A DNA stretch of 49,541 nt, taken from contig CABXST010000003.1 of assembly GCA_902514885.1 (NCBI GenBank), positions 1 to 49,541 on the forward strand. Reading direction: 5' to 3'. Under the pieces are notes generated by a model. That model ran no database searches. It was not told the origin of the DNA and saw only the letters and a program-made list of their open reading frames with translations. Each line of letters starts with the position of its first letter. Position 1 is the stretch's first letter. The position numbers were made by a program, and so were the translations under genes. This document shows, one piece after another, positions 36,110-49,283 of this stretch. This DNA comes from an uncultured Alphaproteobacteria bacterium. Its GTDB lineage: Bacteria; Pseudomonadota; Alphaproteobacteria; HIMB59.

Positions 36110-36778
36110 ATGAAAAGATCTGAGATTAATAAATCTATAAATGAAGCAAAAGAAATGATTGAAAAATACTCATGGGTACTCCCTAAGTGGGGTTATTGGT
36201 CATTAAAAGATTATGATGCTAACCCTTCTATAAAAAAATATTTAAAAGATCACCAAATGGGCTGGGATGTAACGGACTTTGGTAAAGGACAATTTGATAA
36301 AAAAGGTATTACTTTATTTTGTATAAGAAACGGTATTCAAGGAAATTCTGATGACAAACCCTATGCTGAAAAATTATTGTTTATGAAAGAAGGTCAAGAA
36401 ATACCGTTCCATAGCCATAAAGTTAAACTTGAAGACATTATAAATCGTGGTGGTGGAGATTTAGCTCTAGAATTTTTAGAAATTGATAAAAAACAAAATG
36501 AAAATATTAGTGAAATTAAAGTTTTAGTTGATGGCGAAATAGTAAAAATTAAACCTCGACAACCATTGATATTAAAGAGAGGCCAGAGCGTGACAGTTGA
36601 AAGAAACATATATCATAAATTTTATGCAGTAAAAGGCACTGGCATGGTTATGGCGGGTGAAGTGTCCCAAGTTAACGATGACAACAATGATAATTATTTT
36701 TTAGAACCTCTAGGTAGATTTACTGACATTGAAGAAAATGAAGAAGCTATTCATCCTTTATGGAATGAAGTGAAATAA
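36110..36778 (+). CDS. D-lyxose isomerase (cupin type)
   Basis: Converts D-lyxose to D-xylulose, and some members D-mannose to D-fructose. 222 residues with the family's start MKRSEIN and the WDVTDFGKG, FCIRNG and EDIINRGGGDL stretches. The metal site is visible as His101, His103, Glu108 and His169. It abuts the PfkB kinase gene with no gap, so both belong to one unit. Xylulokinase, which could use the product, is encoded 2 kb away. Confidence 0.92.
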   Translation: MKRSEINKSINEAKEMIEKYSWVLPKWGYWSLKDYDANPSIKKYLKDHQMGWDVTDFGKGQFDKKGITLFCIRNGIQGNSDDKPYAEKLLFMKEGQEIPFHSHKVKLEDIINRGGGDLALEFLEIDKKQNENISEIKVLVDGEIVKIKPRQPLILKRGQSVTVERNIYHKFYAVKGTGMVMAGEVSQVNDDNNDNYFLEPLGRFTDIEENEEAIHPLWNEVK

Positions 36779-37762
36779 ATGACCAGAAAAGGCATCATAG
36801 CTGCGGGTATTTGGTGTGTCGACATATCTTATAAAATTAAAAATTGGCCCTCAGAAGGTAAGACCTCAATAGTTGAGAGAAAGATTGATGGAGCGGGTGG
36901 AGGCCCTTCGAACGTTCTAACTAATTTAGAGTATTTAGGATTTAAATTTCCTAAAATAGCACTGGGATGCATAGGTAATGATGATGAATCTGATATTATA
37001 AAAACACATAATAAAAAAAATAATATTATCTCTAAATATCTAACAGTCTTAAAAAAAATCAAAACCTCCTATACTTTAATAATGTCTGAAGGTGGAGGAG
37101 AAAGAACTTTTTTTCATTTTCCAGGAGCAAATGATAGTCTGAGTATTAAAAATATAAAATTATCAAATATTAAAAAATATAATCCTAAAATTTTTTATGT
37201 AGGTTACTTAACTTTTCTTGGAAAGCTTGATCATTTTGATAAAAATGGTGAGACCAATTTATGTACAATTTTAAGAAAAACAAAAAAATTGGGAATGCTT
37301 AATTGTGTAGACTTAGCATCGTATGATCACAACAATTATAAAAAAATAATAAAAAGTGCTGCTAAATATTGTGATTATCTTTTTCTTAACGAGGTTGAGG
37401 CAGAACTAGCAACAGGTTTTAAAATTCTTGTAAAAAAAAAATTTAATAAAAAAAATGCTTTATTGGCAACAAATTTTTTATTAAAAAATGGTGTCAATAA
37501 AGCTGTTATTTTGCACTCACCACAATCCACACTATGGATGGATCAAAATATGAATTCGTTTTGGCATCAATCTGAATTAATCAATCAAAAAGAAATTGTA
37601 AGTAAAGTAGGTGCCGGCGACGCCTTTTGCGCAGCATGCCTATTTGGAATACATCAAGAGTGGCCAGTTGCTAAAATATTAAAAAAGGCTCATTTAGCAG
37701 CTATTTCAATTCTTAAAACAGAATTTTCAAGTGGTGATATACCAAATATAAAATCTCTTTAA
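36779..37762 (+). CDS. PfkB-family carbohydrate kinase
   Basis: 327 residues. The first PfkB region is DGAGGGPSNVLTNL (37-50), and the second holds the catalytic GAGD at 278-281 (VSKVGAGDAF). An ERTFFHFPGAND stretch (108-119) shows a substrate-lid type different from ribokinase. The substrate is unknown. Directly following D-lyxose isomerase, it may phosphorylate a ketopentose or ketohexose. Its stop codon abuts the stop of the convergent aldolase-like gene with no base between. Confidence 0.87.
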   Translation: MTRKGIIAAGIWCVDISYKIKNWPSEGKTSIVERKIDGAGGGPSNVLTNLEYLGFKFPKIALGCIGNDDESDIIKTHNKKNNIISKYLTVLKKIKTSYTLIMSEGGGERTFFHFPGANDSLSIKNIKLSNIKKYNPKIFYVGYLTFLGKLDHFDKNGETNLCTILRKTKKLGMLNCVDLASYDHNNYKKIIKSAAKYCDYLFLNEVEAELATGFKILVKKKFNKKNALLATNFLLKNGVNKAVILHSPQSTLWMDQNMNSFWHQSELINQKEIVSKVGAGDAFCAACLFGIHQEWPVAKILKKAHLAAISILKTEFSSGDIPNIKSL

Positions 37763-38752
37763 CTAGAGTTTAAGAATCTTGTCAGTAATTTGTAAATCTC
37801 GATTTAAATTTAAATCTGGAGTAATTTTTTTCTTTTTGAGCTTGTCATGATAAAATTTAACCCCCTCTGAAGAGGACATTCCTTCAATTATATATCTCAT
37901 AGTTTGAACTATTAAGTTTTGATCCTCAGATAAATTTATTTTTCTTCCAAAAAGAGCAACTTTTGCACCATATTTACTAGACTTCGAAATAAGTTCGAAA
38001 CAATCTCTAGTTGTACCTTTTCCCCCTCCAAGTATACCTACAATTAAGTTATTAGGGTCATAGCTTGATAATTCTTCCATTGCCTTTGGTCCGTTATATT
38101 GAATTTTAAGAAATAATGGTCTTTCAGTACTAATCTGACCAGCAAGTGTCTTTAAAATACAGTCATTCACATACTCACCTAATTGTAATTGATTAAGACC
38201 AGTTCTTGTTTGTGGGTTAAATACTTCTAGAAAATGATTTAATTTAAATTTAATAGCCTCTTCTCTAAAATCCCTATATGCATTTAGCATTTCTAGATCT
38301 GATTTTAAATTTTTAGAGAAAGTCACAGAAAATAATCCTAGGTTAGCAAACCTCTTAACTGATCTTATTTGGGCTGTTCTAAAAGGCGTTGCTAAATTCT
38401 TTTTATATTCCCCATGTCTTATCCCCCATATGTCTGAGGTATCATTCATTCTTACAGCAGGAGTAACTGATGAATTTTTGAATAAACCTTTTTTTACTAA
38501 CCTTTCAGCATTGGAAGCTGACATTAACATAATATCAACAAGACCTGATTTAGTCATTGACTCTATTGATTCTATATAGCCATCTAAGCTTTTATATTGT
38601 TTTAATTTTCTTCCTTTATAATCTCTTTTATTTCCAGGGGCGGGCACACCTCCACCCATATCCGCATCTTTCGCGTCTGCAATAATAAAATCTTTTGACA
38701 TAAATTTACCATTAGTAATATTATTTAATTTTTTATTTAGAGAGTTTTTCAC
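37763..38752 (-). CDS. Aldolase-like TIM-barrel protein
   Basis: 329 residues. I see a barrel-type pattern close to class I DeoC/FbaB/LsrF aldolases: an N-terminal IIADAKDADMGGG strand, GLVDIMLMSASNAERL, HFLEVFNP, LFLKIQYNG with a candidate Schiff-base Lys, GILGGGKGTTRDCFELI and GAKVALFGRKINLSEDQ. No characterised family name comes to mind, and the catalytic residue is not certain. Flanked by a PfkB kinase (convergent) and xylulokinase (divergent), it could split a sugar phosphate into two smaller units. A member of an uncharacterised barrel family is the alternative. Confidence 0.6.
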   Translation of the reverse strand: MKNSLNKKLNNITNGKFMSKDFIIADAKDADMGGGVPAPGNKRDYKGRKLKQYKSLDGYIESIESMTKSGLVDIMLMSASNAERLVKKGLFKNSSVTPAVRMNDTSDIWGIRHGEYKKNLATPFRTAQIRSVKRFANLGLFSVTFSKNLKSDLEMLNAYRDFREEAIKFKLNHFLEVFNPQTRTGLNQLQLGEYVNDCILKTLAGQISTERPLFLKIQYNGPKAMEELSSYDPNNLIVGILGGGKGTTRDCFELISKSSKYGAKVALFGRKINLSEDQNLIVQTMRYIIEGMSSSEGVKFYHDKLKKKKITPDLNLNRDLQITDKILKL

Positions 38753-38812
38753 AACTTAAAACTATAGCTTAATTTTTTTTAGTAAAGTAAAATAGGATCT
38801 GGAGGAATTGAA

Positions 38813-40255
38813 ATGTTTTTAGGTATTGATTTAGGAACTTCATCAATGAAATGCCTGCTAGTTGATGATGAACAGAATATTTTGAGTAGTGTCTCATCAA
38901 ATATTGAAATTTCCAATCCTAAGAGTGGTTGGTCAGAACAAAATCCAAAGTTTTGGATAGATGCTTTAGATGATTGTTTAAAAACTTTATCACAAAAAAA
39001 TAAAATATCTGAAATAAAGGCTATATCATTTTCTGGACACATGCATGGTGCAACCTGTTTAGATAAAGATTTCAATATAATTAGACCATGTATTCTATGG
39101 AATGATACGAGAAGCTTTGATGAGTGTGAGACTATAATGAAAGATAGATCTGTTTTAGATATCTCTGGAAATCTTGCAATGCCAGGATTTACTGCACCAA
39201 AATTATTATGGATGAAAAAAAATGAACCAAAGAAATTTAATCAAGTTGCAAAAGTTTTATTACCAAAGGACTATCTAAGATTTATTTTAACTGGAGAGTT
39301 TTACAGTGACTTGTCTGATGCTTCTGGAACATATTGGTTGGACGTTGGTAAGCGGGAGTGGTCTAAAAAATTACTTGATGACACTCATATGAATATTAGT
39401 CAAATGCCTAATCTGTGTGAAGGAACTGAACAAACAGGTATCGTAAATAAACATTATCAAAAACAATATGGTTTTAATAATAATTGTAAAGTTTATGGAG
39501 GTGCTGGTGATAATGCAGCAGCTGCAGTTGGTCTTGGAATTTTTGAAGAAGGAAATGTATCTCTCTCTTTGGGTACATCTGGAGTAATTTTTGCTTCTAC
39601 TAATAGTTTTTTAAAAAATTATGATGAAGCTATTCACTCCTTTTGTCATTGTTTGCCAAATACTTGGCACCTTATGTCTGTAATGCTTTCATGTACATCA
39701 AATATAAACTGGTTCATAGATACTTTTAACTCATCAATTAAAGAAATTAATTTAGAACTAGAGAATTTATTGAAAAATTACTCTGATGTGAAAAATTTTC
39801 CATTTTTCCTTCCATATTTATCTGGAGAGAGAACCCCAATAAATGATCCACATATTAGGGCAAGTTTTCATGATATGGGCATCGAAACAACGAGGGTATC
39901 TTTAATATATAGTTTAATAGAGGGAATATCATTTGGTCTAAAGGATAATTATGAAGCATTAAAAAAAACAAATATCAAACTTGATAATATTTATGTCATA
40001 GGTGGTGGATCAAATAGTAGATATTGGATAAAATTATTGGCTAACATATTAAATAGAGATCTTTTAATAACTGAGGCCTCTGATACCATGGCCGCATTTG
40101 GTGCAGCTAGACTCGCTTTTATGGGTTATAACAAAGTTCAGCCCAATGAGATATTATCTAACCCTAGAGTAATTGATCAAGTTAAACCAAATCACGTTAA
40201 TGATATGTTAATTAATAATAGATATCAAAAATGGAAGACATTTTATTTAAATTAA
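38813..40255 (+). CDS. xylB: Xylulokinase (FGGY family)
   Basis: Phosphorylates D-xylulose to xylulose 5-phosphate. 480 residues and close to Escherichia coli XylB along its whole length: IDLGTSSMKCLL (5-16), SGHMHGATCL in the substrate loop, ILWNDTRSFDEC, GNLAMPGFTAPKLLW, LLPKDYLRF, the catalytic Asp in GAGDNAAAA, and LPYLSGERTP. A strong Shine-Dalgarno GGAGGAA (38801-38807) precedes the ATG. With the D-lyxose isomerase it completes a lyxose-to-pentose-phosphate route. One base separates its stop from the next start. Confidence 0.95.
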   Translation: MFLGIDLGTSSMKCLLVDDEQNILSSVSSNIEISNPKSGWSEQNPKFWIDALDDCLKTLSQKNKISEIKAISFSGHMHGATCLDKDFNIIRPCILWNDTRSFDECETIMKDRSVLDISGNLAMPGFTAPKLLWMKKNEPKKFNQVAKVLLPKDYLRFILTGEFYSDLSDASGTYWLDVGKREWSKKLLDDTHMNISQMPNLCEGTEQTGIVNKHYQKQYGFNNNCKVYGGAGDNAAAAVGLGIFEEGNVSLSLGTSGVIFASTNSFLKNYDEAIHSFCHCLPNTWHLMSVMLSCTSNINWFIDTFNSSIKEINLELENLLKNYSDVKNFPFFLPYLSGERTPINDPHIRASFHDMGIETTRVSLIYSLIEGISFGLKDNYEALKKTNIKLDNIYVIGGGSNSRYWIKLLANILNRDLLITEASDTMAAFGAARLAFMGYNKVQPNEILSNPRVIDQVKPNHVNDMLINNRYQKWKTFYLN

Positions 40256-40256
40256 A

Positions 40257-40898
40257 ATGGATCAGAATACTTTTAAATATGATGATTTAGTAAAAAAATT
40301 AAAGTCTTTATTATCATTATCTAAAAATACAAAAAAACGAGTCTTTATAGGTATCAATGGCGCACCTGCCTCAGGAAAAAGCACTGTATCTTTGAAGTTA
40401 AAAATTGATTTAGAGTCTCCACAAATAAAACCAGATATCTTACAAATGGATGGATTCCACTTTGATGACGAGATACTAAAAAAGAAAAACTTACTCATCA
40501 AAAAAGGCTCTCCTGAAACTTTTGATTCATTAGGATTAATAAATTTTATGAAGAGATTAAATAATGAAGAAAATGTTGCTGTGCCTATTTTTGATCGTTC
40601 TTTAGAACTATCAAGATCTTCAGCATATATTATTAATTCCGACATAAATTTAATTATTGTAGAAGGTAATTATCTCTTACTTAAAAAAAAACCATGGGAA
40701 AAATTAAGAAATTTTTTTGACTACACAATTTCTATTAAATGTTCTTTAAAAGCCTTGGAGAAAAGATTGATTGATAGATGGAAATCATTTGGTATCGATG
40801 ATGAGATAGTAAATAAAAAAGTATTTGAAAACGATCTACCAAATGGTCAATTTGTGGTAGACAATAGTTCAGAACCAAACTTTTATTTATTAAATTAA
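40257..40898 (+). CDS. frcK: FrcK-like P-loop kinase
   Basis: 213 residues of the nucleoside/pantothenate-kinase-like P-loop group. Walker A GAPASGKST (35-43), LQMDGFHFDD as the Asp-containing second strand, KKGSPETFD, a Walker-B-like LIIVEGNYLL, and ERWxxxG-like RWKSFGIDD as lid. A kinase of this kind is the fourth gene of the fructose operon frcBCAK of Sinorhizobium meliloti. Here it lies beside frcA but on the opposite strand, sharing a TTAA stop overlap, and it follows xylB by one base. The natural substrate is unproven. Confidence 0.78.
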   Translation: MDQNTFKYDDLVKKLKSLLSLSKNTKKRVFIGINGAPASGKSTVSLKLKIDLESPQIKPDILQMDGFHFDDEILKKKNLLIKKGSPETFDSLGLINFMKRLNNEENVAVPIFDRSLELSRSSAYIINSDINLIIVEGNYLLLKKKPWEKLRNFFDYTISIKCSLKALEKRLIDRWKSFGIDDEIVNKKVFENDLPNGQFVVDNSSEPNFYLLN

Positions 40899-41683
40899 TT
40901 AGATGGAGGAGCTTTTGCTCCTGTCATGTAAGCAACTGCATCAGACATTGAATTTTCTTTAGGATTAATTACGCATAACCTTTGACCCAATCTATGTATA
41001 TGTATTCTATCTGATACTTCAAACACATGGGGCATGTTGTGAGAAATTAGTATAATAGGAATTCCTCTTGCCTTGACTTCACCTATTAATTCTAGAACTC
41101 TTCTACTCTCTTTTACACCCAAAGCTGCGGTGGGCTCATCCATAATAATAACTTTTGTACCAAATGCAGTGGCCCTTGCTACGGCAACACCTTGTCTTTG
41201 TCCTCCAGACAGTGTTTCAACTTGTTGGTTTATATTTTGTATCGTTAGTAGACCTAGCTCAGATAATTTTTTTCGAGCCATTTCTTGCATCCCTGACTGG
41301 TCAAGAAATCTTAAAAATTTTCCCATAAAACCTTTTTTGTAAATTTCTCTTCCTAAAAACATATTATCAGCAATGGTAAGAGCAGGGGAAAGTGCTAAAT
41401 TTTGATAGACAGTTTCAATTCCTGTTTTTCGAGCTTCAATTGGAGAGTCAAAAGTAACTGTTTTCCCATCCAAAAGAATTTCCCCAGAATCTGGTTGAAC
41501 AGCCCCACACAAAGCTTTAATTAGTGTTGATTTTCCTGCACCATTATCACCAATAACTCCTAGCACCTCATTTTTATATAATTCTAAATCAGCATTATCT
41601 AACGCTACAACTTTTCCATACCTTTTATTTATTCCTTTTGCTTGTAATACAGGTTCCATTAATTTGAGATCCTTCTTATCCAT
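40895..41683 (-). CDS. frcA: Sugar ABC transporter ATP-binding protein (FrcA-like)
   Basis: Single-domain ATPase that powers sugar import. 262 residues. Walker A GDNGAGKST (45-53), Q-loop YQN (93-95), signature LSGGQRQG (158-165), Walker B VIIMDEP (178-184), and H-loop ISHNM. Most ribose-type transporters have a double-length ATPase; the half-size form is what FrcA has. It overlaps the permease gene by 25 bases. Confidence 0.93.
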   Translation of the reverse strand: MDKKDLKLMEPVLQAKGINKRYGKVVALDNADLELYKNEVLGVIGDNGAGKSTLIKALCGAVQPDSGEILLDGKTVTFDSPIEARKTGIETVYQNLALSPALTIADNMFLGREIYKKGFMGKFLRFLDQSGMQEMARKKLSELGLLTIQNINQQVETLSGGQRQGVAVARATAFGTKVIIMDEPTAALGVKESRRVLELIGEVKARGIPIILISHNMPHVFEVSDRIHIHRLGQRLCVINPKENSMSDAVAYMTGAKAPPSN

Positions 41684-42741
41684 TGATCAATACCTACAGC
41701 TATAATTATAAGACAACCAAGAGCAAATCTTTGCCATAAAACGTCAAGACCAGCTATTGAAAGTCCTGAACTAAAAACTCCAACAATAAGAGCACCAAAG
41801 AGTGCGCCAACAATTGATCCTCTTCCACCAAACAATGATGTACCACCGATAACAACAGCAGTAATTGAGTCTAAGTTTCCCTCATAAAAACTTGTTGGAG
41901 ATACAGATCCCACTCGCCCTATGGAAACCCAAGCCCCAAGAGCTAATATAACACCAGCAACAGTATAAACTGAAAGAAGCATCCTATCGGTCCTAATACC
42001 AGAGAGTTCAGCCGCCTCCTTATCATCACCTACAGCATAGACATGTCTGCCCCAAGCTGTTTTATTTAAAACAAACCACAAAACTACAAAAATTAAAATC
42101 ATAAGGAACGACCCATATGTAAATTGCGCTCCAAGAATTTTTACTCTTTCTCCAAAAAAATGAAGAAGGGGTGCATTAGCCTCAATATCTCTAGATCTAA
42201 TTGATTGAGAACCACTGAAAAAAATGACCAAAGCAAAAAATATATTCCAAGTTCCAAGTGTAACTATAAAAGGAGGAAGACGAAATTTGGTAACTAACCA
42301 ACCGTTTAAATATCCACAAATCGCTCCACTGGCCATGCCAACCATTATTGCTACTGATGTAGGTATGCCCATTTGCACAGAAAGCTTTCCCATAAAAACT
42401 GAGGCCAAAACCATTATTGCAGCCACACTTAAATCAATACCAGCAGTAAGAATTATTAATGTCTGAGCCGCAGCAAGAATACCAACTATTGTAACTTGTT
42501 GAATGATAAGAGATAAATTGAATGCAGAAAAGAATTTTCCACCGGCAATCATACCAAAAGCGGAAACACTCAAAATTAAAATTATTACAGGAATCATGGT
42601 AGGGTTGCCATGAAGAAAATTTTGTATTTTTTTTAAGGTATTTGGTTTTTCTATCTCAAAAGTATGATGTTCCTGACTTTTATCGCCAATTTCTTCTTGA
42701 AATTTTGGCTGTTCTTTAAGGTCTTTAGAAATATCACTCAT
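41659..42741 (-). CDS. frcC: Sugar ABC transporter permease (FrcC-like)
   Basis: Integral inner-membrane subunit of the importer. 360 residues: a charged cytoplasmic N-terminus (about 1-48), then eight to ten hydrophobic spans beginning TMIPVIILILSVSAFGMIAG, with the conserved loop ELSGIRTDRMLLSVY and the VVIGGTSLFGGRGSIVG segment that contacts the ATPase. Order binding protein - permease - ATPase matches frcBCA. The gene starts 73 bases after the binding-protein stop, with a hairpin in between. Confidence 0.93.
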   Translation of the reverse strand: MSDISKDLKEQPKFQEEIGDKSQEHHTFEIEKPNTLKKIQNFLHGNPTMIPVIILILSVSAFGMIAGGKFFSAFNLSLIIQQVTIVGILAAAQTLIILTAGIDLSVAAIMVLASVFMGKLSVQMGIPTSVAIMVGMASGAICGYLNGWLVTKFRLPPFIVTLGTWNIFFALVIFFSGSQSIRSRDIEANAPLLHFFGERVKILGAQFTYGSFLMILIFVVLWFVLNKTAWGRHVYAVGDDKEAAELSGIRTDRMLLSVYTVAGVILALGAWVSIGRVGSVSPTSFYEGNLDSITAVVIGGTSLFGGRGSIVGALFGALIVGVFSSGLSIAGLDVLWQRFALGCLIIIAVGIDQWIRRISN

Positions 42742-42766
42742 ACTTTTACAAAAATAGTTTTTAATA

Positions 42767-42792
42767 AGAAAGGCGGCCTATACCGCCTTTCT
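42767..42792 (-). terminator. Intercistronic hairpin between frcB and frcC
   Basis: A perfect 10-bp stem AGAAAGGCGG (42767-42776) with CCGCCTTTCT (42783-42792) around a 6-base loop. On the minus strand it follows the binding-protein stop and is not followed by a clean U-tract, so partial termination or protection of the upstream message is more likely than a full stop. Such hairpins often keep binding protein in excess over permease. Confidence 0.75.
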
Positions 42793-42814
42793 CTTTTAAT
42801 TAATTAATGAGACT

Positions 42815-43846
42815 TTAGCCCCAACATCTATCCATACCTTCTTTTGTATCGATAGAAGGTACGCCTGAAGCTGGGAAATCAGTAACTAAGTTTACACCAG
42901 TATCAAAGAAATCTAATCCTGGGGTATTAGCAGGCTTAACTCCATCTTCAGCCCAAGCTTTAATAGCTTCAACACCAAGTGATGCCATTAAAAGTGGGTA
43001 CTGTTGAGATGTAGCTCCAATAACACCATCAGCAACGTCTTGAACACCAGGGCAACCACCGTCAACGGAAACAATTAAAATTCCATCATCAGCTTTACCA
43101 GCTGCTTTTAAAGCTTCATATGCTCCTGCAGCTGCAGGTTCATTAAGTGTGTAAACAACATTGATATCTGGGTTCTTTTGAAGAAGTTTTTCCATAGCGT
43201 CTCTTCCACCTTCTTCATTACCATTTGTTGGCTCGTTACCAACGATTCTAGGGTCATCTTCATCTCCCCATCTAGTAATGTCTTTTGTATCAATACCAAA
43301 TCCGGTTAAAAAACCTTGGTCTCTTAAAACATCGACTGATGGTTGACTTATGTTTAAGTTTAACATTGCAATAATGGCTTTTGAAGTATCACCAAAAGAT
43401 GATGCTGCCCATTCACCAATTAACTTACCAGCTTTAAAATTATCAGTTGCAAAAGTTGAGTCTGCTGCACCAATTGGCTCAAGAGGAGTGTCTAGTGCGA
43501 TAACAAGCAATCCTGCATCTTGAGCTTGACCTAAAACAGTTGTAATGGCTTTAGTATCAGAAGCAGCAATTAAAATACCGCTTGCTCCAGAAGCTATGCA
43601 AGTTTCTACAGCTTTTACTTGTGTTTCATGGTCGCCGTCAATTTTTCCTGCAAACGTGGAGAGTTTAATACCAAGCTCATCAGCTTTAGCTTTAGCACCC
43701 TCTTTCATTTTTACAAAAAATGGATTGATATCCGTTTTTGTAATCAAACAAGCTTCAATAGCATGACTTCCTGCTTTTGCTGGTAGAGTTGCAAAAGTAA
43801 AAGCGACTGCCATAAGTGAAGCTAAGACTAGAGATAATTTTCTCAT
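42815..43846 (-). CDS. frcB: Sugar ABC transporter substrate-binding protein (FrcB-like)
   Basis: Periplasmic binding protein that hands fructose-type sugars to the permease. 343 residues. Signal peptide of about 25 residues ([18 protein letters not shown], cleavage near PAKAGS), then [58 protein letters not shown] and [12 protein letters not shown], which match FrcB of rhizobia closely. The Shine-Dalgarno AGGAGGA (43854-43860 reversed) is strong. Richer in G/C and optimal codons than neighbours, as expected of an abundant protein. Rhizobial FrcB is known for fructose, with ribose and mannose as weaker ligands. Confidence 0.94.
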
Positions 43847-43924: not shown

Positions 43925-45397
43925 TTAATGTTGATTTTTAAGAAAATGTTTATCAATTATTTCCTTCCATTGATCATATGTGCTTTGTGCTGCTTTATTT
44001 TTTTTTGGACTTACTATTGTATTATTAAGCTTAAATCTCTTTAAATCGTTTAAATTTGTTATTTTATGTTGGTATTGTAAACCAAATAATAAGGCTCCAT
44101 AGGAAGACATATCCTCCATTTCTGGAATGATGACATCAGTTTGAGATAAATCTGCAATTAATTGAGTAAAAAATTTATTTTTAACCATCCCACCATCTAT
44201 TGAAAGATTATTTAATGAAAAATTTTTTGATTTTTGTAAAAATTCCAAATACAAAAACATTTGAAATGCTACTGATTCAAGAGCAGCACGAATTAAGTGT
44301 CTTTTATTTGTTGCAGCATTAATGCCAAAAATAGCAGCACGAATATCTGAAATCCAAAAAGGTGGGCCTAGACCCGAAAAAGCTGGAACAAAATAAACAC
44401 CATTACTACTCTCCACATCTGAAGAAAACGTTTCACTTTCATCAACAGATTTTATTAATTTTATATTATCCATTAGCCAAGAAATTGTCCCTCCAGCAAA
44501 AGAACCTAGACATTCTGAAGCAAAAGTATTTTGTTTATTTGTATAAGCTAGAGAGGTGAAAGAATTATCATCTAGTAGTAATTGATTACCAATATTTGTC
44601 TGTATATTAAAGCCAGTACCAGTAGTAATTTTAGTATCACCCTGTTCAAAACAAAAGTTAGCAAACAATGATGCTTGTGCATCACCTACTACGCCTATTA
44701 TAGGAATTTTTTTCTCAAAACTTCCATTAAAATGGCTTTCACCAAAAATTTCAGAGCTTTTTTTAATCTCTGCAAATTGAATGTTCCTTATATTAAATAT
44801 AGACAATAACTCATCGTCCCATTTATTGTTCAGGCAATCAAATAAAAGAGTCCTAGAGGCATTAGTTGTATCAGTTACAAAAGACTCTAAATCAGTTAAG
44901 CGATATATGAGATACGTTTCAATTGTTCCAAAGCAAATCTCTTCATTTTCTATTTTTGAATTTATTTCAGAATTATTTTCAATAATCCAATTTAATTTAC
45001 TTCCAGAAAAAAAGGTATTTGGTTGGAGACCAGTCTTCTTTTTAATAGTTTGAGTTAATTCCCTATTACTCAAAAGATCATCACAAATTTTTTGCCCTCT
45101 TGTGCATTGCCAAACAATTGCATTATGTATGGGCTTACCTGTTTTTTTTTTAAATAATGAAAAAGTTTCTCTTTGATTTGTAATACTTATAAACCTAGGG
45201 TCAGGCGATAAAAGAGAAGCTTGTTTTACAAGTTCAATTAAATTTTGAAAGATTTCCTCAAGGTCATGCTCAATGTATCCTTCTTTTGTATAAATTTGTT
45301 TGTGTTCTTTTTGAAATTTTTTTAAAACTTTTAAATTATCGTCGAAAACTAATACTGTTGTAGAGGAAGTGCTTGAGTCAATAGTTATATATCCCAT
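43925..45397 (-). CDS. FGGY carbohydrate kinase, glycerol-kinase-like (candidate apulose-type kinase)
   Basis: 490 residues. IDSSTSSTTVLVFD at the N-terminus, ITNQRETF (Arg76, Glu77), AIVWQCTRG, TTNASRTLLFD and the catalytic Asp239 in VGDAQASLF place it near GlpK. But residues that contact glycerol in GlpK differ: the Tyr of PYFSG is Phe129, and the first Gln after the catalytic Asp is Ala240. So glycerol is unlikely, and a four- or five-carbon ketose or branched sugar is a better guess. It shares one base with the transketolase C-half gene, and its product would be a sugar phosphate for that enzyme. Confidence 0.85.
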   Translation of the reverse strand: MGYITIDSSTSSTTVLVFDDNLKVLKKFQKEHKQIYTKEGYIEHDLEEIFQNLIELVKQASLLSPDPRFISITNQRETFSLFKKKTGKPIHNAIVWQCTRGQKICDDLLSNRELTQTIKKKTGLQPNTFFSGSKLNWIIENNSEINSKIENEEICFGTIETYLIYRLTDLESFVTDTTNASRTLLFDCLNNKWDDELLSIFNIRNIQFAEIKKSSEIFGESHFNGSFEKKIPIIGVVGDAQASLFANFCFEQGDTKITTGTGFNIQTNIGNQLLLDDNSFTSLAYTNKQNTFASECLGSFAGGTISWLMDNIKLIKSVDESETFSSDVESSNGVYFVPAFSGLGPPFWISDIRAAIFGINAATNKRHLIRAALESVAFQMFLYLEFLQKSKNFSLNNLSIDGGMVKNKFFTQLIADLSQTDVIIPEMEDMSSYGALLFGLQYQHKITNLNDLKRFKLNNTIVSPKKNKAAQSTYDQWKEIIDKHFLKNQH

Positions 45398-46335
45398 TAA
45401 CCTAGCATTTTAGAAGACAAAGCTGCTATTTTTTCAGGGCTCATATTATAGTGATCTAGTACATCGGCTTGGGAGCCATTAACTATATATTCATCTGGTA
45501 TTCCAAGAATTTTGAAATCAAGATTAATCTTATTTTGAGCAATGATATTTGCGCATTGTTCACCTAAACCCCCATAAATACTGTGCTCTTCAATAGATAT
45601 CAAGACCTTGGATTTTTTAGCCATTTTTATTAAAATATCGTTATCAAAGGGTTTTATTGTGTGCATACTTATTATAGTGGGATTAATACCCTTTGTTTTT
45701 AAAATCTCTCCTGCTAATACAGCTCTTTGAACAGTTTCGCCTGTAGAAACTAAAGTAATGTCTTCTCCTTCTGAAACTGTTATCGCTTTCCCAATTTGAA
45801 AATTAGTTCCTGGAGAATGAATACTCATCATTGGTTTTTTTCCATACCTTATATATAGAGGTTTGTCATAACCAACTGAGGCTTTAATAATCTCCGAAGC
45901 TTCAAAGTTATCTGCTGGAGCAACAATCGAGATGTTGTTAAATGTTCTTAAAGATGCAAAATCATGAATGGAATGATGTGTTGAGCCAAGTTGCCCATAA
46001 CTAATACCTGCACTTATGCCAACTAGGACCACAGGTTGATTTGAATAACAGATATCATTTTTAATTTGTTCAATAGACCGAGCTGTAAGAAAGCTTGCTG
46101 GAGACACACCAAATACCTTTTTACCACCTGCTGAAAGACCTGCAGAAATTCCTACTAAATTTTGTTCAGCTATACCTACCTCTATTATTTGATCAGGTAA
46201 TTCTTTTCCAAAATTTACTAGCTTTCCTGATCCTCTCGAGTCACTAGTTACTACTAATATATTTTGGTTTATTTTTGCTTGATCTAAAAGTGTGTCAGCA
46301 AATATTTCTAGATTTGGTTTTCCAATTTTATTCAT
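45397..46335 (-). CDS. Transketolase, C-terminal subunit
   Basis: Pyrimidine-binding and C-terminal half of a thiamine diphosphate enzyme split over two genes. 312 residues. The catalytic Glu57 in GIAEQNLVGISAGL activates the cofactor. FGVSPASFLTARSIEQIKNDI, GSTHHSIHDFA and APADNFEASEII are typical of split transketolases. It overlaps the N-terminal half gene by 8 bases and the kinase gene by one, so all three are made together. Split forms are often dedicated to catabolic pathways, not the central pentose pathway. Confidence 0.92.
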   Translation of the reverse strand: MNKIGKPNLEIFADTLLDQAKINQNILVVTSDSRGSGKLVNFGKELPDQIIEVGIAEQNLVGISAGLSAGGKKVFGVSPASFLTARSIEQIKNDICYSNQPVVLVGISAGISYGQLGSTHHSIHDFASLRTFNNISIVAPADNFEASEIIKASVGYDKPLYIRYGKKPMMSIHSPGTNFQIGKAITVSEGEDITLVSTGETVQRAVLAGEILKTKGINPTIISMHTIKPFDNDILIKMAKKSKVLISIEEHSIYGGLGEQCANIIAQNKINLDFKILGIPDEYIVNGSQADVLDHYNMSPEKIAALSSKMLG

Positions 46336-47161
46336 ATTTACTTAATTTTTCATCCAATTCTTTAATTGCTTTTTTATACTCTTCATCAGTTGGAACCTTA
46401 TGATGCCAAGAGATTTCATTTTCAATAAAGCTTATTCCACAACCCTTGATTGTATTAGCAATGATTGCACTTGGTTTATCAGCAGTAAAAGGAACTTTTT
46501 GAAATATTTCCAGAAGCTCAAAAATATTATTTCCATTTACAAATTCTACGTTAAAACCAAAAGATTTAAATTTCTCATCTAAAGGTTCAATTGGATTAAC
46601 ATCTTCTGTTTTACCAGTGATTTGTAAATGATTTCTATCAACAATGACAATGAGATTATCCAATTGATATTTACTTGCTGATGTACAAGCCTCCCAAACA
46701 GACCCTTCAGAAAGTTCTCCATCTCCTAGTAAAGCAAACACCTTTTTTTTTGATTTATCTTTTTTCTTAGCCAGAGCTAATCCTACGGCAACTGAAAGCC
46801 CGTGCCCTAGTGCACCAGTATTGTGCTCAACACCTAAAACTTTTTTTGTTGGATGGCCAATGAAATGAGAGTCAAACGCATTTAGAGTATCTAGATCTTC
46901 TTTTTTAAAAAAACTTAAATCACACAAAACAGTGTAAAGGGCCTCAACTGAGTGGCCTTTACTATGAATGTAATTATTTCTTTCAATAGTAGTGAAATTA
47001 TTGGGTGTAATTTCTAGAAAACCATTATAAAGAACATTCAAGATGTCTATACAGGATAAACTTCCACCCGTATGCCCAGCTCCTGAATTGTAAATAATTT
47101 CTATAATCGTCCTTCTATATTCCAAGGATTTTTTTTCTAAGAATTTTTGATCTACACTCAT
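46328..47161 (-). CDS. Transketolase, N-terminal subunit
   Basis: Diphosphate-binding half of the split transketolase. 277 residues. SGAGHTGGSLSCIDIL (26-41), SKGHSVEALY, GALGHGLSVAVGLAL and the thiamine-diphosphate motif GDGELSEGS starting at 146 with ending Asn (RNHLQITG) about 30 residues on. It forms a heteromer with the C-half encoded directly downstream. It lies 39 bases after the isomerase gene in the same direction. Confidence 0.93.
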   Translation of the reverse strand: MSVDQKFLEKKSLEYRRTIIEIIYNSGAGHTGGSLSCIDILNVLYNGFLEITPNNFTTIERNNYIHSKGHSVEALYTVLCDLSFFKKEDLDTLNAFDSHFIGHPTKKVLGVEHNTGALGHGLSVAVGLALAKKKDKSKKKVFALLGDGELSEGSVWEACTSASKYQLDNLIVIVDRNHLQITGKTEDVNPIEPLDEKFKSFGFNVEFVNGNNIFELLEIFQKVPFTADKPSAIIANTIKGCGISFIENEISWHHKVPTDEEYKKAIKELDEKLSKYE

Positions 47162-47200
47162 TTTAAGATTATCAATTGAAAATAATAACTTTGATTTTTT

Positions 47201-48190
47201 CTAGTCTCGAGCTAAATGTTTATACAGAGCCTTTTGTGCAATTTTTAACGCACCCATAGCATCATGATTGGCTTGTGCCTTAGATAGAGCATCGTAATCT
47301 AAGTCATCAAGTGCCTTATCAACTGATTTTAGAAAATCTATCGCCATATCTGCCATTTCAACACTATCTTCACGAAATGGGAACTGATCTAACTGCCAAA
47401 CTCCCTGCCAATTATTTTTTCTTAAGACATAAAAAAATTCAAAAAGCTCCATTGGATGAAGGCTCCCTGCTAAAAGATCATCATCCCAAGATCTATAATT
47501 ATCGTTTACATCCATCCCAAATAACCTTCCGTGATCAATAGCTAATTGAGCAGAGTCAGCCGCTGACTCTCCACCATAAATTGCATGACCAAAGTCTAAA
47601 AGTACTCCTATATTAGGTAAGCCTATTTGTTCAATCCCAAGTAACGTTCTAGTCATCGAGTCGTAAATCATTTTCACCCTTGGCTCGCGAGGTTTGTATT
47701 CGATTACAAATTTTAAATCAGAATTTTCAGTTGCTAAGCTCCCAACCCCATCCATTGAATTTTTCCATATTGCTTTATGGTCAACTTGAAATGGATAATC
47801 CCATCCATCCTGACCTGGCCAAAGTTTTACATAAGAAGCCTTAAAGAAACGAACTGCTTCACACGCCTCAGTAATTAATTCATGGGCTCTTTTTCTGACA
47901 CCAGGATCTGGATTAGTAAAAGCACCTTTTGAAAATTCTCTTGTATAAATTTCAGGGGTGATACCAATTACTTTTAATCCTGCTTTATCGAGGGCTTTTT
48001 TAATTTGCTCATTTGAAAATTCTCCTCCAAAATATGGATAGTTAATATCAACATAAGACAAATCTTGAACTTTTCCGGCAAGCTCAATAGCTTCAATAAC
48101 ACTTCGTGGTTCTCCATAACCATCAGTTGCATACCTATCGAGATAAGTAGCGAAGTGCCAGATACCCGCTCCAAACTCTTGTTTTTTCAT
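47201..48190 (-). CDS. Xylose-isomerase-like TIM-barrel sugar isomerase/epimerase (candidate apiose-type isomerase)
   Basis: 329 residues of the AP-endonuclease-2 / xylose-isomerase-like barrel superfamily. Likely metal ligands at strand ends: Glu164 (FVIEYK), Asp199 and His202 ([10 protein letters not shown]), Asp227 (GMDVND) and Asp268 (WQLDQF). It starts [20 protein letters not shown], a pattern I associate with sugar isomerases but not with one proven substrate. As first gene of an operon with a split transketolase and an FGGY kinase, it probably makes the ketose that is then phosphorylated and split. Confidence 0.75.
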
Positions 48191-48380: not shown

Positions 48381-49283
48381 ATGAAAAAAATAATTCTTAC
48401 AATTCTTGTTTCATTCCTATCTCTTTCTGCATTTGCTGAAAGAATAGTTATGGTAACACACGGTGAGGGTAAAGACCCTTTCTGGCCTGTTGTGCAAAAA
48501 GGTGGTGAAGATGCTGCTAGACACGTAGGTGCGGATTTTGAATATATCTTTAACCCATCTGGAGATCTAGGTGATATGGCTAAGTCAATTGCAGCTGCTG
48601 CTGCTACTCAGCCTGATGGTATGGTAGTTTCACTTCCAGATCCTGAAGCATTAGGTCAAGCAATCAAAGACGCTGTAGCAGCTGGTATCCCAGTTATTAC
48701 AATGAACTCAGGTTTAGAATCTTCTGCTTCTTTAGGTGCACTTATGCACGTTGGACAGCCAGAATATCTTGCTGGTCAAAAAGCAGGTGAAAGAGCTAAA
48801 GCTGAAGGTGCAACAAAAGCACTTTGCATGATCCAAGAAGCATACAACACTGCTCTGACAGACAGATGTGGTGGATATGCTGAGATGCTTCCAACAACTA
48901 ATGTTGATACATCTAATGACCCAGCGTCTATTCCAACAAGAGCAGCTGCTGGTTTACAAGCTAACCCAGATGTTGATGCTGTTCTTTCAGTTGGACCACA
49001 CGTTTGTTCAGGTGTTCAAGCAGCGATTGACGATCTAGGTATGTCAGTTCACCACTCATGTTTTGACTTAAGCCCAGAAGTTATGGACTTAATCAACTCA
49101 GGTAAAGTTGCATTTACAATTGATCAACAACAAAGATTACAAGGTTATATGCCTGTTGTTGTTATACACTTGTACAACAATGGTGCTGGTCTTCTTCCTG
49201 GTGCAAACATTCCATCAGGTCCAGGATTTGTTGATAAGTCAAACGCATCATCAGTTTCTGCTTTAGCAGGTATTGATAGATAA
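48381..49283 (+). CDS. Sugar ABC transporter substrate-binding protein, ribose/autoinducer-2 type
   Basis: Periplasmic binding protein of the class that serves ribose-type importers. 300 residues. Signal peptide of 19 residues (cleavage after SLSAFA), then HGEGKDPFWPVVQKGGEDAA as the first ligand strand, FNPSGDLGDMAKSIAAAAA, IPVITMNSG and GQPEYLAGQKAGERA. A strong Shine-Dalgarno and rich codon use suggest high expression. The ligand is unknown. Its divergence from the isomerase/transketolase operon hints that it imports that pathway's sugar. Confidence 0.92.
   Translation: MKKIILTILVSFLSLSAFAERIVMVTHGEGKDPFWPVVQKGGEDAARHVGADFEYIFNPSGDLGDMAKSIAAAAATQPDGMVVSLPDPEALGQAIKDAVAAGIPVITMNSGLESSASLGALMHVGQPEYLAGQKAGERAKAEGATKALCMIQEAYNTALTDRCGGYAEMLPTTNVDTSNDPASIPTRAAAGLQANPDVDAVLSVGPHVCSGVQAAIDDLGMSVHHSCFDLSPEVMDLINSGKVAFTIDQQQRLQGYMPVVVIHLYNNGAGLLPGANIPSGPGFVDKSNASSVSALAGIDR

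Follow-up and report, generated by a model that had tools for sequence, protein, structure and literature searches.

Which sugar is broken down by the products of an isomerase, split transketolase and FGGY kinase operon harbored by a member of the HIMB59/AEGEAN-169 clade? The operon is located in contig CABXST010000003.1, whose 49,541 nucleotides, i.e., the whole stretch of DNA that was analysed, are referred to as the window. A sequence-only reading had proposed that it serves the use of apiose, a branched plant sugar, or of a close analogue. The genes of the operon and those flanking it are the following.

47201..48190, minus strand: aldose isomerase with a barrel fold, 329 aa, assigned by its membership of the 3ktc family
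46328..47161, minus strand: N-terminal half of a transketolase, AptA-like, 277 aa, with a Transketolase_N domain, ThDP-binding, carrying the GDGELSEG...N motif
45397..46335, minus strand: C-terminal half of the transketolase, AptB-like, 312 aa, with Transket_pyr and Transketolase_C domains, pyrimidine-binding, carrying the EVGIAEQ motif
43925..45397, minus strand: GlpK-derived FGGY kinase, proposed apulose kinase, 490 aa, with FGGY_N/C domains
42815..43846, minus strand: FrcB-type sugar-binding protein of an ABC transporter, assigned by its identity to alphaproteobacterial homologues
41659..42741, minus strand: FrcC-type permease, assigned by position, best family scores and frcBCA gene order
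40895..41683, minus strand: FrcA-type ATPase, single domain, 262 aa, in the same order as in an annotated frcBCA
48381..49283, plus strand: second sugar-binding protein, divergent, of the rhizopine/inositol type, assigned by its matches to NF052284 and PDB 4ru1

The four ORFs of the operon and the spacing first reported for them (39, −8 and −1 bases, in the order isomerase, transketolase N-terminal half, C-terminal half and kinase) were all recovered on the minus strand, and the Pfam and NCBIfam profiles agree with an isomerase barrel (AP_endonuc_2), with both transketolase halves and with a GlpK-like FGGY kinase. Linkage of the isomerase, transketolase and kinase genes is conserved in two families within the order, as well as in several contexts with a changed arrangement; their arrangement is not due to chance.

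The same types of enzymes form the non-oxidative transketolase route of Pectobacterium carotovorum and E. coli STc131 (MetaCyc PWY-8089, D-apiose degradation I): the isomerase family known from Pectobacterium, an FGGY kinase and a two-subunit transketolase are all present in the window. The operon is quite likely to represent a mosaic form of this pathway for the branched pentose D-apiose, for which we infer the substrate and each of the reactions. The barrel isomerase would convert D-apiose, possibly taken up through the adjacent FrcBCA-like transporter, into D-apulose; carbon 3 bears two hydroxymethyl groups, one of which the GlpK-derived kinase would phosphorylate, yielding apulose 4-phosphate; and the two-subunit transketolase would use glyceraldehyde 3-phosphate as the acceptor of a two-carbon unit, the products being xylulose 5-phosphate and dihydroxyacetone phosphate, both of which would feed central metabolism.

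The isomerase belongs to the ApsI/3ktc family. In a PDB search, its closest solved structure was 3ktc (63.8% identity, E 5e-136), and a Pectobacterium-type genome encodes an isomerase that matches 3ktc at each of the 320 aligned residues, in a cluster having the order ABC-TKA-TKB-kinase-isomerase. The putative assignment of 3ktc as ApsI rests on this identity and on the published data (PMC13001218). In the isomerase tree, the window protein is sister to the rhizobial copies (100/99), together with those of Devosia, all located in isomerase/transketolase/FGGY operons, and 104 residues are invariant among 26 members of the family. The plasmid-borne isomerase-TKA-TKB-FGGY operons of Rhizobium and Sinorhizobium show a gene order identical to that of the window and contain the isomerases closest to the window's from outside the order (79% identity; 78.9% for the Rhizobium copy). 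However, their transketolases and kinases are only 38-45% and 28-30% identical, respectively, to those of the window, the transporter is of a different type, and in one of the rhizobial operons a triose-phosphate isomerase gene is attached. Lone homologues of the isomerase also exist in Pantoea, Marinomonas and Croceibacterium, with no transketolase or kinase gene nearby, and this counts against the apiose reading.

In the tree constructed on the concatenated transketolase halves, 27 pairs from apiose contexts form a single clade with respect to 24 other split transketolases (100/96). This clade embeds the window pair, the Pectobacterium-type pair and aptA/aptB of E. coli SE15, a strain whose corresponding kinase gene is named aplK; strains possessing the cluster grow on D-apiose (PMC13001218). 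The window pair joins those of Listeria and Monoglobus (100/98), followed by the E. coli and Pectobacterium-type ones (99/97). Both the Listeria and the Monoglobus cluster have the organization FucI-like isomerase-TKA-TKB-'glycerol kinase'-apiosidase, and their apiosidase-domain genes score 313 and 60 bits, respectively. They differ from the window in having a FucI-like isomerase rather than the barrel enzyme, and a PTS or extracellular hydrolases. Since the lyxose isomerase, xylulokinase and other sugar genes at 36110-40898 lie beside the transporter in an order that is conserved in many sister genomes, the operon might be seen as a part of a D-lyxose isomerase/xylulokinase locus, channeling a common pentose into xylulose 5-phosphate. 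Nevertheless, this locus includes an isomerase and a kinase of its own, and it does not accompany the transketolase-kinase unit in family f2 or in two further genomes (G012 and G023). Moreover, the cell would have no need of a second, dedicated split transketolase, because another transketolase-family gene, with an open frame of 626 aa, exists elsewhere in the window's genome. Such pentose scavenging is very improbable.

As far as the kinase is concerned, glycerol kinases are its top NCBIfam and PDB matches, so that it might be an ordinary glycerol kinase placed by chance next to the isomerase and the transketolase. However, its score against TIGR01311, still its best NCBIfam model, is 457 bits, under the cut-off of 590, and Q246 and F270 of the glycerol pocket, invariant in all the sampled GlpK sequences, are replaced by A and N, respectively. 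In addition, a true GlpK is encoded separately in two sister genomes, and the kinase accompanies the transketolase in every examined arrangement where the contig shows both. Since cut-off, pocket and context all disagree with it, a literal glycerol kinase role was ruled out, and a chance neighborhood of this kind is extremely improbable. As the window's genome is 58% complete, the lack of another GlpK in it is no evidence. In the kinase tree, the window protein joins the kinases of the Listeria and Monoglobus clusters (96/93), and this group is sister to GlpK. In the best tree, it lies outside the AplK clade (reference ECSF_RS02700 of E. coli SE15), with which it shares 28-31% identity; a joint clade was not rejected (AU p 0.10). 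According to the best tree, the window kinase would represent a GlpK-derived lineage apart from AplK, unlike in the PWY-8089 systems. The comparison with characterised apiose proteins that the sequence-only reading had called for thus supports the isomerase and the transketolase, whereas the best tree sets the kinase apart. None of the proteins falls into a clade of proven other specificity, which favors the apiose reading.

The comparison of 60 related genomes revealed that the entry enzyme has been exchanged repeatedly. No genome has both the window-type isomerase and an unrelated FucI-like protein; 28 of the 30 genomes harboring the transketolase contain either one or the other, the two usually occupy the same slot, and at least three swaps can be counted on the transketolase tree. 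This pattern counts in favor of the apiose reading. The HIMB59 FucI-like protein is 25-27% identical to the FucI-like isomerases of Listeria and Monoglobus. As SftI is its best model match, the sulfoquinovose transketolase pathway was also considered and rejected, the score being only 97 bits with respect to a cut-off of 700. To our knowledge, that route needs no kinase. In two of the related genomes (G012 and G019), the two dehydrogenases known from the apiose cluster of E. coli adjoin the isomerase and the transketolase (57% and 53% identity), which favors apiose as the substrate. These two enzymes, proposed to substitute for ApsI in E. coli, recur beside the same transketolase/kinase genes in HIMB59 and in rhizobia.

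The claim that two sugar ABC transporters adjoin the operon holds in full for the downstream one (40895-43846), which is complete and FrcBCA-like. Its binding protein shares 70-73% identity with alphaproteobacterial homologues, one of which is annotated as frcB, and the order frcB-frcC-frcA is the same; unlike the known FrcBCA fructose transporters, it sits behind an apiose-type catabolic unit. Of the upstream transporter, the window contains only the binding protein; the permease and ATPase that go with it are present in sister genomes. This protein (244.5 bits against NF052284, cut-off 420; best PDB match 4ru1) probably belongs to a separate transport locus. It is unlikely to be an apiose receptor, because its nearest models are rhizopine/inositol ones and because it adjoins the isomerase slot regardless of which isomerase fills it. 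Neither transporter is of the type found in the known apiose clusters, and a specificity of the two for apiose is not supported. The E. coli and rhizobial clusters contain a binding protein/DUF2291-type ABC transporter, whereas the window operon possesses neither a DUF2291 protein nor a regulator, and its binding protein is only 26-28% identical to that of the DUF2291-type transporter. The latter belongs to the accessory rather than the enzymatic features of the apiose pathway.

The pocket of the kinase raises the question of whether the isomerase, the kinase and the transketolase might act, with the same chemistry, on a different aldose, perhaps a branched sugar other than apiose or an aldose of four or five carbons. 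Positions 246/270 are occupied by S/S in the AplK-type, Listeria, Monoglobus and family f2 kinases, and the combination F135, A246, F269 and N270 of the window subclade is unlike even that of the other apiose-type kinases, a finding that speaks against the apiose reading. The FrcBCA-like transporter, the replacement of the isomerase by a member of the FucI family, which has several substrates, and an open-ocean habitat without an established apiose source likewise speak for another aldose. Nevertheless, the similarity of the isomerase to the rhizobial copies, the position of the transketolase within the apiose clade, the apiosidase-domain genes clustered with its nearest relatives and the dehydrogenase pair in related genomes render a different aldose unlikely. 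A little less probable still is that the window subclade uses the operon not for plant apiose but for a branched sugar in open-ocean DOM that has so far gone unrecognised, to which the pocket would have adapted, the ApsI and FucI types being interchangeable entry enzymes.

Seagrasses had been suggested as a marine source of apiose, which is not supported. The clade inhabits surface waters of the open ocean (PMC11366302), and a search of the 60 related genomes for an apiosidase gene gave no hit, a result that also counts against the apiose reading. Free sugar of a different origin is therefore at least equally probable.

Most descriptions of apiose breakdown concern plant-associated and gut bacteria (PMC13001218); the process is not mentioned in the literature that we found on sugar use in HIMB59/AEGEAN-169. 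The non-oxidative apiose pathway proposed here would also predict that the FucI-like proteins of the HIMB59, Listeria and Monoglobus clusters represent a second, non-homologous apiose isomerase. In the South Pacific Gyre, this streamlined clade can make up several percent of all cells (PMC11366302); if our interpretation is correct, these abundant bacteria would feed on apiose or a near analogue, and such a sugar must therefore be supplied in open-ocean water.

The sequence-only reading had described a four-gene unit on the minus strand with spacings of 39, −8 and −1 nucleotides, and both the coordinates and the spacings proved to be as claimed. Domain searches assigned the encoded proteins to a xylose-isomerase-like barrel, the N and C halves of a transketolase (TKA and TKB) and an FGGY kinase. 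The adjoining genes for a binding protein, a permease and an ATPase are probably a further part of the operon:

47201-48190, minus, isomerase
46328-47161, minus, transketolase N half
45397-46335, minus, transketolase C half
43925-45397, minus, kinase
42815-43846, minus, FrcB-type sugar-binding protein (70-73% identity to FrcB-type proteins)
41659-42741, minus, permease (gene order as in the annotated frcBCA operon)
40895-41683, minus, ATPase (gene order as in the annotated frcBCA operon)
Upstream of the operon, divergent, second binding protein of the rhizopine/inositol type

The adjoining transporter differs in type from those of the E. coli and rhizobial apiose clusters. A second sugar locus (36110-40898), conserved as a neighbour of the operon across many HIMB59 genomes, encodes a member of the D-lyxose/D-mannose isomerase family, a PfkB kinase, a xylulokinase scoring over its model's cut-off and a PRK/uridine-kinase-like protein. 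Between its PfkB and xylulokinase genes lies a conserved 329-aa protein (37763-38752, minus), 57-77% identical in sister genomes, with no match to Pfam or NCBIfam models.

In the tree of the concatenated transketolase halves (51 rows), every pair from an apiose-type context falls in one clade (100/96), apart from the 24 other split transketolases included. The nearest neighbours of the window pair are the Listeria and Monoglobus pairs (100/98), followed by those of E. coli SE15, a Pectobacterium-type genome and Gilliamella (99/97); the grouping was unchanged with a smaller outgroup set. The E. coli SE15 genes are named aplK, aptA and aptB, and cluster-positive strains grow on D-apiose (PMC13001218). 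The Listeria and Monoglobus clusters contain a FucI-like isomerase, TKA, TKB and a "glycerol kinase", together with a protein that matches the Apiosidase domain of Pfam (Listeria 313 bits, Monoglobus 60 bits), and look like unannotated apiose utilisation loci (L126:3765-11555 and L160:3726-10620). The transketolase copy of a Streptomyces plasmid sits amid pectinesterase, GH28 and arabinofuranosidase genes. Such surroundings point to apiose-bearing plant polymers.

The best structure match of the window isomerase is 3ktc, of the D-apiose isomerase (ApsI) family (E 5e-136; 63.8% identity). The isomerase of the Pectobacterium-type genome, from the same phylum, agrees with 3ktc at every one of 320 aligned residues. 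Its cluster (binding protein, ABC genes, TKA, TKB, kinase, isomerase), whose transketolase subunits are 71-79% identical to aptA and aptB of E. coli SE15, agrees with the Pectobacterium apiose cluster carrying apsI (PMC13001218), and the genome would be that of a Pectobacterium. The window isomerase is closer (78.9%) to a Rhizobium plasmid copy, with the order isomerase-TKA-TKB-kinase, and the HIMB59 copies are sister (100/99) to rhizobial and Devosia copies, all located within isomerase/transketolase/kinase-type operons. Homologues with 62-71% identity and no transketolase or kinase nearby occur in Croceibacterium (L033), Marinomonas (L018) and Pantoea (L084, L085); a distant relative (about 35%) in a second family of the order (L155:8795-9790; L154) is part of a different sugar locus, which also has an ABC transporter, an FGGY kinase and PfkB kinases.

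The best model for the kinase is glycerol kinase, whose cut-off it misses (457 versus 590 bits), and its identity to the rhizobial, E. coli, Gilliamella and Devosia cluster kinases is 28-31%. In the tree, the HIMB59 kinases fall together with the Monoglobus and Listeria ones (96/93), this group being sister to true GlpK (100/97), and the AplK-type kinases make up a separate clade (100/100); a tree uniting HIMB59 and AplK kinases was not rejected (p 0.10), and some of the branches are long. Residue numbers are those of E. coli GlpK in its glycerol complex, transferred by alignment. Q246 and F270 occur in every GlpK sampled; serine occupies both positions in kinases of the AplK type, of Listeria, of Monoglobus and of the second family, those of G012 and G023 have serine and cysteine, and those of the window subclade alanine and asparagine, a pocket unlike all others in the set. 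With Q246 and F270 replaced, the pocket is not that of a glycerol kinase. A true GlpK is encoded separately in G028 and G029. Since C3 of D-apulose bears a hydroxyl and two hydroxymethyl groups, and is thus glycerol-like, it would be chemically sensible for an apulose kinase to have arisen from GlpK. In G008 (L151) the kinase is broken into two ORFs, 70% and 55% identical to that of the window, possibly through a frameshift or assembly error.

Families and context suggest that the isomerase would convert D-apiose to D-apulose, the kinase would yield apulose 4-phosphate, and the transketolase would cleave this with glyceraldehyde 3-phosphate as acceptor, so that xylulose 5-phosphate and dihydroxyacetone phosphate result. 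Two rhizobial clusters have a triose-phosphate isomerase gene attached, which fits a route that consumes glyceraldehyde 3-phosphate and produces dihydroxyacetone phosphate.

Relatives have one of two proteins in the slot that separates the transketolase from the second binding protein: the barrel isomerase or, in opposite orientation, a FucI-like protein (467 aa). The 60 genomes searched contain the isomerase in 16 cases, the FucI-like protein in 13 and both in none; exactly one is present in 28 of the 30 transketolase-bearing genomes, the exceptions being G002, with a dehydrogenase module at the contig end, and G011, cut by the contig end. On the transketolase tree the label switches four times, and well supported branches require at least three of these switches; the same exchange occurs at a second chromosomal place in G012 and G023. 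This pattern is strong evidence that the two proteins share one function. As a third kind of entry module, G012 and G019 carry a pair of short-chain dehydrogenases and an ABC transporter of the ribose type next to isomerase and transketolase; in G002, one of the two dehydrogenases was recovered beside the transketolase. The module is found between isomerase and transketolase at:

L077:10954-15977 (locus in G019)
L076:3956-9001

Its dehydrogenases are orthologous in type to the pairs of the E. coli SE15 apiose cluster (57% and 53% identity) and of a Rhizobium transketolase-kinase cluster (58% and 66%). The E. coli dehydrogenases have been proposed as a replacement for ApsI (PMC13001218).

No apiosidase gene was found in the 60 related genomes, and the cell would therefore need the free sugar. 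The source genome (836 kb, 58% complete; the window is its contig 3) has marine single-cell genomes as near relatives, G028 being of the same genus; AG-916-M14 is the reference genome for genomospecies HIMB59-1.A (PMC10734472). The clade to which it belongs, AEGEAN-169, inhabits the surface open ocean and has unusually broad sugar transport (PMC10308909, PMC11366302), and apiose is on record from seagrass pectin, green algae and a few bacteria (PMC5607165, PMC7644952). Apiose itself is quite probably the substrate; because of the transporter type, the kinase pocket, the absence of an apiosidase gene from the genomes searched and an as yet hypothetical open-ocean source, we word the assignment as "apiose or a near branched analogue". 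This kind of pathway is already known. New are its predicted presence in an abundant open-ocean clade, its apparent mosaic make-up, in which an isomerase of proteobacterial type is combined with transketolase and kinase of the Listeria/Monoglobus type, and what the trees indicate to be recurrent swaps between the isomerase and a protein unrelated to it.
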